DNA from: Planctomycetes bacterium RBG_16_43_13
GTDB lineage: Bacteria > Planctomycetota > MHYJ01
DNA length: 8,856 nt
Direction: 5' to 3'
NCBI GenBank assembly: GCA_001828445.1
Contig: MHYJ01000119.1
Span: 1-8,856 of the forward strand
The position numbers and the translations under genes were made by a program. Under the pieces are notes generated by a model. The model did not search any database. It had not been told where the DNA came from and saw only the letters and a list, made by a program, of their open reading frames with translations. Below, piece after piece: positions 242-1,845 of this stretch; positions within the stretch are counted from its first letter, which is position 1; every line of letters begins with the position of its first letter.

Positions 242-271
242 TTGTAGATATATTAGGAATTTGCTTATAAT
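242..271 (+). promoter_or_regulatory. Candidate sigma70 promoter for the peptide/radical SAM cassette
   Basis: There is a perfect TATAAT at 266-271. An 18-base spacer separates it from a poor -35 match, TTGTAG at 242-247. Transcription would start near 278, about 55 bases before the peptide start codon. The -10 box is convincing and the -35 is weak, so an activator may be needed. It sits in the 101-base gap after the upstream gene, where I see no clear terminator hairpin. Confidence 0.45.
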
Positions 272-317
272 AATAGGTGTTTGGAATGTAGAGGAACCAC
301 TGTTGTAAATATTAAGT

Positions 318-323
318 AGGAGG
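318..323 (+). promoter_or_regulatory. Strong Shine-Dalgarno site of the small peptide gene
   Basis: AGGAGG lies 10 bases before the ATG at 334. It is one of the two full AGGAGG sites seen before start codons in this window and is the main support for translation of the 53-residue peptide. The downstream radical SAM gene has no comparable site, which suggests that more peptide than enzyme is made. Confidence 0.7.
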
Positions 324-333
324 GCTGTCTAAG

Positions 334-495
334 ATGGAAAAGAAAGAGGGGGACAGGAATCAGGATAAAAAGAAGATTTATCAAAGTCCAAAAATAGAAA
401 CTCAGCATTACCTTGAAAGGGGAGCGCTGGCTTGTGGAAAGGAGATGGATAATTTCCTCAACGAACCTTGCCAAACATCTCCAATGAATTCTTAG
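334..495 (+). CDS. Putative RiPP precursor peptide, 53 aa, with ACGK motif
   Basis: This small gene encodes 53 residues, ATG 334 to TAG 493-495. The N-terminal half is charged and lysine-rich (MEKKEGDRNQDKKK) and runs into IYQSPKIE at 15-22. A Y-x-x-P-x-I-E pattern of this kind is typical of RiPP leader peptides bound by recognition domains. The C-terminal half (residues 23-53) has two cysteines, C34 within ALACGKEM and C46 within NEPCQTSP, followed by a Ser/Pro/Asn tail. There is no signal peptide. It sits 15 bases before a radical SAM/SPASM gene, the classic arrangement for a precursor and its maturase. A radical SAM/SPASM family named after ACGX repeats in its substrates is known to me from memory; here only one ACGX copy is present, so membership is uncertain. 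The likely product is a cysteine-crosslinked (thioether) peptide, which is inference. The alternative is a small unmodified protein. Confidence 0.72.
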   Translation: MEKKEGDRNQDKKKIYQSPKIETQHYLERGALACGKEMDNFLNEPCQTSPMNS

Positions 496-510
496 TGTAA
501 ATCCAAGATT

Positions 511-1845
511 ATGGGGATATTAGGTGAAATTTCTCAACTTGTAACTAAGAAATATATCCCTTATTCTGTTATATTAGAACTCACCCGCAAATGTAACCTT
601 AACTGCCAGCATTGCTATGCTACGCCAGAGAGGGGAAGGAGAGAACTCTCTTTTGAGGACACAAAGCACATTATAGATGAACTCCGTGAACTTGGGACGC
701 TCTTCGTCAGTTTTACTGGGGGCGACCCAACCGTTAATCCAAATTTCCTAAATATCCTTCGTTATGCCAGTGATAGAAAGATGGCTCTGCAGATATTTAC
801 AAATGGATTGGCAATAACTGATGATGTTGCTAATGAGTTATCTAAACTAAATATATTCTACGTTGGAGTTAGCGTTTATGGTGCTACTGCCAAAACGCAT
901 GATGCAATAACCCGTGTTCCCGGCTCATTCAATAAGACAATAAATGCCTGTAAGCGGCTGAAGGAGCAGGGTATATATGTCCTATTAAAATATATATTAA
1001 TGCATCTTAACTTTCACGAGTATGATTCTATGATTGAAATGGCAAATCAGCTTGGCATACCTTATCGGATGAATACCAAAATGACTGCTCGGGATGATTT
1101 GGCACGGGATACATTTGACCTCTCTGTAGCGGAAGGAGATATGAAAAGGAGTTTCAGCGACCGCTTTGACGAAGAGTTCCATGAAAAGAGGGTCAATAAC
1201 AACAACTTCAGCGATCTTGGTTGTAATATGGGACGTTCGCTGATGAGTATAAATGCTTATGGAGATGTATTCCCCTGTATTACGGTTCCAATTCCTGCCG
1301 GTAATGTGAGATACGTCTCGCTAAAAGAGATATGGCATAATTCGCCATTCCTAAAAGAGATTCGCAGGTTTCCTGACAAAGATAAGATATATGGTTGCAC
1401 GAGTTGTAATATAAGGAAATATTGCAATAGGTGTCCAGGTAATACCTTCACTGAAACAGGCGATATATATGGTCCAAGCCCATCTGCCTGCAGGGAGGCA
1501 CTGATATGGAAAGAGGTTGCAGATGAGAGAGACGGTAGGCATTATGAGTCGGTAGAACTACCGCCCGGGTTGGTAGGTATTGAGGATAGTAATGAGCATA
1601 AGCCAATAGTATGGGATAGATTTAGCTATTTCAAGACGGAGAGATATAGTGAAGATGAGCCACCATTCGCAGTATCGCACATCGGGGGATGGGAGCCGTA
1701 TGAGATTGTTCACGGGGCGGGAAGTAATAGCGGCGGCTGTTCTCAGGCATCCCAATCCTGCGGTAAAGATATACGGTTATCTATGAATACGAGGGGAGAA
1801 AAAGCAGATATAGATGCTGTGCCGGTAGAATGGGCTAAAATATAG
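511..1845 (+). CDS. Radical SAM/SPASM peptide maturase
   Basis: The 444-residue protein has a radical SAM core (about 18-200) with the cluster motif CNLNCQHC (C28, C32, C35, Tyr after the last) and TGGDP at 69-73, equivalent to the SAM-contacting GGE motif. A SPASM domain follows, with C238, C256, C296, C299, C305, C308 and C327, enough for two auxiliary 4Fe-4S clusters; the landmarks GDVFPC, GN, a Trp and CNRCPG are in the expected order. SPASM enzymes mostly modify ribosomal peptides, for example in sactipeptide, PQQ or mycofactocin pathways. The substrate is probably the 53-aa peptide just upstream, which is in the same frame and separated by one TAG and five codons. Residues from about 335 form an extra tail of roughly 110 residues, not cluster-binding in pattern, with a Gly/Ser/Cys stretch and SCGKDI near 420. 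No PqqD-like or RRE domain is evident. The ATG at 511 lacks a good Shine-Dalgarno, suggesting low expression or coupling to the peptide gene. The enzyme class is firm; the chemistry and product are unknown. Confidence 0.9.
   Translation: MGILGEISQLVTKKYIPYSVILELTRKCNLNCQHCYATPERGRRELSFEDTKHIIDELRELGTLFVSFTGGDPTVNPNFLNILRYASDRKMALQIFTNGLAITDDVANELSKLNIFYVGVSVYGATAKTHDAITRVPGSFNKTINACKRLKEQGIYVLLKYILMHLNFHEYDSMIEMANQLGIPYRMNTKMTARDDLARDTFDLSVAEGDMKRSFSDRFDEEFHEKRVNNNNFSDLGCNMGRSLMSINAYGDVFPCITVPIPAGNVRYVSLKEIWHNSPFLKEIRRFPDKDKIYGCTSCNIRKYCNRCPGNTFTETGDIYGPSPSACREALIWKEVADERDGRHYESVELPPGLVGIEDSNEHKPIVWDRFSYFKTERYSEDEPPFAVSHIGGWEPYEIVHGAGSNSGGCSQASQSCGKDIRLSMNTRGEKADIDAVPVEWAKI

Follow-up and report, generated by a model that had tools for sequence, protein, structure and literature searches.

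A 53-residue peptide ahead of a radical SAM/SPASM enzyme is a probable RiPP precursor belonging to a peptide family of Omnitrophota and Acidobacteriota

A two-gene unit of a short peptide and a radical SAM/SPASM enzyme

Does a 53-residue open reading frame that directly precedes a radical SAM/SPASM enzyme encode a RiPP precursor, and is the enzyme its maturase? We addressed this question for the window, i.e. the whole stretch of DNA analysed (8,856 bases, 41% GC), in which a two-gene unit on the plus strand consists of the 53-aa ORF (334–495, stop included; ATG at 334, stop TAG at 493–495) and a 444-aa enzyme (511–1845). The elements on which the original prediction was built were all confirmed in the sequence. 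This included the ORF itself, a strong Shine-Dalgarno sequence, AGGAGG (318–323, plus strand), 10 nt before its ATG, a YxxPxIE motif, two cysteines (C34 within ACGK, and C46) and a gap of 15 bases (496–510) up to the ATG of the SPASM enzyme at 511. No Shine-Dalgarno-like site was seen before the enzyme start on inspection of the sequence, and a strong site on the peptide with none before the enzyme is consistent with a single message from which both would be co-translated. Peptide and enzyme also share one reading frame across 334–1845, in which one TAG and five sense codons lie between them, and read-through of this TAG would yield a fusion. By our estimate, a shared frame of this kind is likely to be unremarkable by chance.

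The downstream neighbours of the enzyme lie on the minus strand and comprise a PilO-like gene, a gene without clear family and a PilM gene, beyond which are L28, an isochorismatase-type gene, a flippase-like gene, PurH and DUF1015 (L28 and PurH from our own reading of the ORFs). The identity of PurH reached at most 54% across 145 Omnitrophota genomes and 55% across 40 Acidobacteriota genomes. The 333 bases 5' of the peptide hold the end of an ORF with no convincing match in NCBIfam or Pfam. Promoters and terminators were predicted in the window no more often than in shuffles, and the window had no Rfam match at the gathering threshold. By eye, repeated AGTTC/GTTCC-like words were noted at 1846–1925, between the convergent enzyme and PilO-like genes.

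The enzyme and its relatives

The enzyme frame is intact, and a CxxxCxxC motif together with a SPASM domain places the protein, a predicted maturase, among the radical SAM/SPASM enzymes. Both Pfam domains scored above cut-off (PF04055, 2.7e-26; PF13186 SPASM, 1.5e-10). On the plus strand, the radical SAM cluster motif C28-x3-C32-x2-C35 is encoded at 592–615 and the SPASM region, with seven cysteines (238, 256, 296, 299, 305, 308 and 327), at 1222–1491; all ten radical SAM and SPASM cysteines are present. Further cysteines are C147 and, in a C-terminal tail, C410 and C417. As the radical SAM motif begins at residue 28, there is no room for an N-terminal RRE.

The combination of radical SAM and SPASM domains is shared with the sactipeptide and ranthipeptide maturases SkfB, AlbA, StsB and PapB, and, among solved structures, SkfB (6efn, 6.5e-20) gave the best sequence score. 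However, scores stayed below the cut-offs of the corresponding models (StsB, 119 of 625; SkfB, 83 of 300; AlbA, 73 of 850; PapB, 66 of 340), and no NCBIfam cut-off was reached among the 25 models shown of 91 matched. Viperin models (PADLOC, 74 bits) also matched the enzyme, which we took as general radical SAM similarity.

A protein search returned 158 homologues at E ≤ 1e-20. The closest group comprised the first 26 (P0001–P0026; 42–54% identity), followed by the next protein at 39%, among the 120 of 158 listed. A quick tree was built from 123 rows, namely the window, 60 of the 120 proteins listed and 62 related loci (all of the 64 described below but L008 and L009). In it, this 26-protein group formed one side of a branch (SH-aLRT 93), and its sister set (SH-aLRT 90) contained the Acidobacteriota locus L047, where PqqD, HprK and a peptide also occur. 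Closer enzymes were not found in 384 Omnitrophota genomes (four at E ≤ 1e-100, best 5.3e-108), nor at 1e-95 in 396 Acidobacteriota genomes, only 4–5 candidates per genome being scored in both searches. A scan of 84,980 species genomes via two short conserved patterns confirmed three loci only (28–34%). Viral contigs gave no match in the search for relatives, and 475 plasmid records matched, the 15 listed being at ~30% or less.

The peptide belongs to a family encoded near related enzymes in two phyla

As a single query, the window peptide found no homologue by word search, so its family link rests on profiles. It had no NCBIfam match and nothing above the Pfam cut-off; the same held for nine (NCBIfam) and four (Pfam) family peptides. 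Loci fetched with the enzyme profile, covering 64 of 100 enzyme places (best-scoring first), were scanned with a regular expression, which gave 55 lines of similar short ORFs. From these, 33 peptides were hand-picked as short, near the enzyme and on its strand (one duplicate and 21 others were dropped); they include that of L047, located 1.2 kb upstream of its enzyme. The expression demanded Y..P and a later Cys, so these two features are not independent evidence.

A profile of these 33 peptides, encoded near distant homologues of the enzyme and built with the window left out, scored the window peptide at E 1.3e-6, whereas the best of 2,000 shuffles reached E 0.36, and it was the only profile built here that hit the window at E ≤ 1e-4. 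Together with its layout, this match establishes the window peptide as a member of a YxxP...E..A..C peptide family. The layout comprises KKxYxxP(I/V), a Tyr–Cys distance of 18, Glu at Cys−6, Ala at Cys−3, Lys at Cys+2, a second Cys and a final Ser (Ser53, 490–492). The two cysteines, C34 (433–435) and C46 (469–471), are the only ones in the peptide and are 12 residues apart.

Across the 33 locus peptides, the Tyr–Cys distance was 18 in 22, Cys−6 was Glu in 23 and Asp in two, Cys−3 was Ala in 19, and 25 ended in Ser. Y16 and P19 were invariant in a 26-row alignment, A2, for whose members Y..P had been required at picking. A2 contains the window and 25 of the 33 peptides; L010, L017, L019, L028, L032, L033, L047 and L062 were omitted, Phe-type peptides among them. 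A database search with the 26 aligned peptides returned 886 proteins at E ≤ 1. The best 120 of these 886 (E 3.6e-9 or better) were all named 'hypothetical protein'; all 120 had a Tyr–Cys distance of 18, 118 had Glu/Asp at −6, 118 had Ala at −3 and 119 had a final Ser. The selection of A2 and the restriction to the best 120 of 886 both overstate uniformity. The second Cys mostly followed at a spacing of 7–8 in the best 120 of 886 versus 12 in the window, and such variable spacing argues against one fixed Cys–Cys ring. Across the 26 aligned peptides, the sequence after the first Cys varied widely.

The original prediction looked to conservation of two motifs, YxxPxIE and ACGK. YxxP is common in the family peptides (as required at picking), and the residues around the Cys vary. 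Its comparison with the ACGX system (TIGR04340), suggested by the A-C-G-K tetrapeptide, led nowhere. Substrates of that system carry ACGX repeats, whereas the window peptide has a single ACGK copy, and membership was rejected on the score of the enzyme (106 bits against a cut-off of 400).

The family recurs beside related enzymes across phyla. A profile of the 19 Omnitrophota peptides gave 32 hits at E ≤ 1e-3 among 4,788 six-frame ORFs, namely all 19 peptides used for training, 12 of the 14 from Acidobacteriota and a single new ORF (L030, 364 bases upstream). Relative to the downstream end of the enzyme match, 30 of the 32 hits lay between 72 bases before and 176 bases after it; the L016 hit scored inside the enzyme match because of a long open frame. 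The reverse test was weaker, the Acidobacteriota profile finding 7/19 Omnitrophota peptides at E ≤ 1e-3 and two new ORFs, in L044 and L045, ~1 kb upstream of the enzyme. The profile from one phylum thus also finds peptides of the other. Enzyme homologues lacking a similar upstream peptide had been named as the case against the original prediction; instead, a peptide was found within 1.5 kb of 34/64 enzyme matches (33 of these being the peptides that built the profile), and 30/64 had no peptide hit within that distance. The peptide usually lies downstream of the enzyme, and upstream in a minority of relatives, as in the window. The proposal of a RiPP-like precursor, short and easily missed, with a SPASM maturase is therefore supported by similarly designed peptides close to homologous enzymes in both phyla. 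Selection, also raised in the original prediction, was assessed on the relatives' peptide genes, where pN/pS was 0.13–0.44 (uncorrected; 16 most similar pairs printed), which looks like purifying selection. That the peptide is not a substrate and its neighbourhood accidental, a reading in line with the missing homologue in the word search, is highly improbable given the profile match and the repeated nearness in two phyla.

One locus, L027, departs from this layout in that two similar short ORFs flank a single enzyme, 36 bases after and 62 bases before the match. Both were weak profile hits (E 0.016 and 0.044), and Trp replaces Tyr in their leader motif.

Partner genes of related enzymes and their absence from the window

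Within flanks of up to 1.5 kb around the 64 enzyme matches (Omnitrophota, Acidobacteriota), we detected HprK-like genes in 56, PqqD in 53, NTP transferase in 22, S24/S26 in 22, C25 in 11, B2 in four and ABC in two. In 23 wider loci (three named plus 20 picked from the higher-scoring matches), the corresponding numbers were PqqD 23, HprK 21, peptide 18, NTP transferase 15, S24/S26 13, ABC 10, C25 6 and B2 5; the partner profiles were seeded partly from loci that were counted again, and 13 of the 23 wider loci seeded the PqqD profile. Pfam confirmed PqqD, NTP_transf_5, Transglut_core3, Peptidase_S24 and Peptidase_C25 on example loci, and one B2 example attained the NCBIfam lasso B2 cut-off (33.4 of 33). 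The enzyme's relatives thus have established partner genes.

The type of predicted leader peptidase (B2 or S24/S26) went with the residues before the first Cys. Phe occupied Cys−3 in 5/5 B2 loci and 0/28 others, and Glu/Asp occupied Cys−6 in 1/5 B2 loci versus 12/14 S24/S26 loci (counted by eye). The last residues of the B2 peptides were C, N, T, P and A, and those of the S24/S26 peptides were Ser (13) and Thr (1). With L-E-R-G-A-L-A-C and a final Ser, the window peptide is of the non-B2 kind. Given this association, the cleavage and modification sites are directly testable.

In the window, the profiles for PqqD, HprK, NTP transferase, S24/S26, B2, ABC and C25 gave no hit at E ≤ 1e-4. The absence of a transporter, protease or RRE, as originally reported, was borne out: no RRE, kinase, peptidase or exporter was hit by profile within the 8,856 bases, 333 of which lie upstream of the peptide, a bound that applies to the window and not to the whole genome. 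The suggestion drawn from this, that the product may be cytoplasmic, found no echo among the relatives, which have predicted leader peptidases (S24/S26 in 13 and B2 in five of the 23 wider loci) and ABC genes (10 of 23).

Considering the peptide profile match, the family layout and the partners near relatives together, the best overall explanation is that the 53-aa ORF encodes a RiPP precursor and the adjacent gene its radical maturase; we assign this a rough probability of 0.72. The window appears to be a minimal outlier of the family, with no partner genes in its 8,856 bases and a Gly-Cys tail on the enzyme. Missing partners might also be read as the trace of a former cluster, now unproductive after losing its RRE, kinase, peptidase and exporter. 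We regard such a remnant as improbable, as both frames are intact and the ten radical SAM/SPASM cysteines, the strong Shine-Dalgarno sequence and the motif residues have all been kept. Still less probable is a peptide-derived redox cofactor, comparable to PQQ or mycofactocin and kept inside the cell, rather than a secreted peptide. No exporter or peptidase was found in the window and the enzyme scored moderately with the mycofactocin and PqqE models, but these scores are far below the cut-offs (137 of 265 and 100 of 381, respectively), the sequence after the first Cys varies widely in the 26 aligned peptides, unlike a cofactor, and related loci carry predicted leader peptidases and some ABC genes.

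Comparison with known phosphorylated peptides and a proposed route to the product

The leader and the relatives' partner genes resemble those of the linear polyphosphorylated peptides (LPP; Popov et al. 2026, PMC13381572). In that work, RRE binding was shown for the LPP leader YxxPxVLxHQxIxFETxxS, cleavage follows T-1 and phosphorylation falls on Ser3. Y16-Q-S-P19-K-I21 of the window fits the YxxPxV-type start of this leader, as does YxxP(I/V) in general, whereas the rest of the consensus (HQ, FET) is unmatched. Relatives' loci share with the LPP clusters a discrete PqqD-type protein, an HprK-like kinase, an NTP transferase and a signal-peptidase-like gene (PMC13381572). In contrast, the window, with 333 bases upstream covered, gave no profile hit for an RRE, HprK-like kinase, NTP transferase or SpI-like peptidase. 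The LPP clusters are also described without a radical SAM enzyme (the word 'radical' is absent from the main text) and as restricted to Bacillota (PMC13381572). By our own count, Cys in the window takes the place of the Ser that is phosphorylated at core position 3 in LPP.

Related loci likewise have a discrete RRE-type protein, an HprK-like kinase and an NTP transferase in common with paeninodin-type phosphorylated lasso peptides; a final Ser is the kinase target in paeninodin (PMC9266682), and relatives' peptides mostly end in Ser. They differ in having a radical SAM enzyme instead, with no lasso cyclase recognised among the recurrent neighbours of related loci. In the window, no B2 profile hit was obtained and no cyclase occurred among the Pfam hits of nine scanned window proteins. 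We considered the final Ser as the HprK site and set this aside, as HprK is present in five B2-type loci whose peptides lack a final Ser. SynChlorMet (TIGR04248–TIGR04251), on which Haft has reportedly worked, was a further point of comparison. The relatives' HprK-like and PqqD proteins matched ScmC and ScmD weakly and the window enzyme matched ScmE and ScmF, all far under the cut-offs (ScmC, 24–33 of 125; ScmD, 46 of 100; ScmE, 114 and ScmF, 106 of 400).

On these analogies, residues to about A31 would form a leader of the lasso/LPP type with K-K-x-Y16-x-x-P19-x-I21. Its motif Y16-x-x-P19-x-I21-E22 (379–399, plus strand) is a predicted RRE-binding site, YxxPxI corresponding by analogy to the leader motif bound by lasso/LPP-type RREs, and a PqqD-like recognition protein (RRE) would bind it. 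In the printed LPP consensus, we counted 15 residues from Tyr to the cleavage site and 18 to the modified residue (PMC13381572). T-1 at Tyr+15 and Ser3 at Tyr+18 thus coincide with the family Ala and Cys, which points to cleavage after A31 and modification centred on C34. A signal-peptidase-like enzyme may cut near A31/L32 and release a 22-residue core, predicted as residues 32–53 (LACGK...C...S; 427–492, plus strand) and containing C34, C46 and Ser53. Thioethers are a common outcome of SPASM enzymes acting on Cys-bearing peptides. The SPASM enzyme may oxidise the core so that a thioether joins C34, and perhaps also C46, to a neighbouring carbon, each link costing 2 H; we place the odds of a thioether against other radical chemistry at about even. 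The peptides of relatives are probably also substrates of the HprK-like kinase. For the window pair, where only peptide and enzyme occur together, the RRE and the peptidase would lie upstream of the window or elsewhere in the genome.

The C-terminal Gly-Cys tail

The enzyme carries a C-terminal extension (1492–1842, plus strand) whose Gly/Ser/Cys-rich stretch includes C410 and C417. Of the 26 group proteins, 16 have a related tail (P-P-G-L ... G-W ... E-L ... G-C); three others (P0016, P0018, P0019) have a different C-x-C-G tail, one is truncated and six (P0005, P0015, P0020, P0022, P0023, P0025) have no tail. In an alignment of 16 rows, made up of the window and 15 group proteins selected because they carry the tail (P0002 was omitted as a near-copy), the Cys was invariant and the preceding Gly nearly so. 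The tail was also considered as a fused precursor, given an E-x5-C that some tails share with the peptides, and rejected at an hhalign probability of 0.3%.

A tail of this kind raises the alternative of a true maturase pair without any RRE, in which the enzyme group would bind the substrate itself, perhaps via the Gly-Cys tail. We consider this unlikely. The window has no PqqD hit as against 23/23 wider related loci (13 of which seeded the profile), and the tail, present in 16/26 group proteins, keeps its Cys in all 16 aligned rows; yet the leader retains YxxPxI, a motif bound by RREs, only 333 bases of the window lie ahead of the peptide, no tail exists in six of the 26 group proteins, and tail and peptides have no detectable similarity (hhalign 0.3%). 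Equally tentative is a broader proposal of a large RiPP class in which a lasso/LPP leader, RRE and kinase are joined to a radical SAM enzyme, a radical Cys crosslink replaces phospho-Ser3, and the window group dispenses with the RRE, binding or priming via the Gly-Cys tail.

With the fewest genes, the window offers a compact test of whether an enzyme of this kind can work with no RRE gene adjacent. Through the peptide, an isolated two-gene operon becomes linked to a family of up to 886 protein clusters (E ≤ 1) in Omnitrophota and Acidobacteriota, two phyla with few studied natural products. In this family, radical SAM chemistry meets recognition and phosphorylation of the lasso/LPP type, two toolkits that are usually described apart. 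Searches of open-licence papers brought up no account of a peptide family combining radical SAM, HprK and RRE, and passages of PMC12710340 and PMC9902471 contain no case of one.

A literature search found no paper on C25 peptidases together with RiPPs. The C25 hits in 11/64 flanks all belonged to the Acidobacteriota set, and in the eight of them with a peptide this peptide always had E-(A/T)-(R/K)-A-x-x-C. At L089:5908-10218 and L079:7552-11850, gingipain-type C25 peptidases with a propeptide (Pfam) lie in the same gene run as the radical SAM enzyme.
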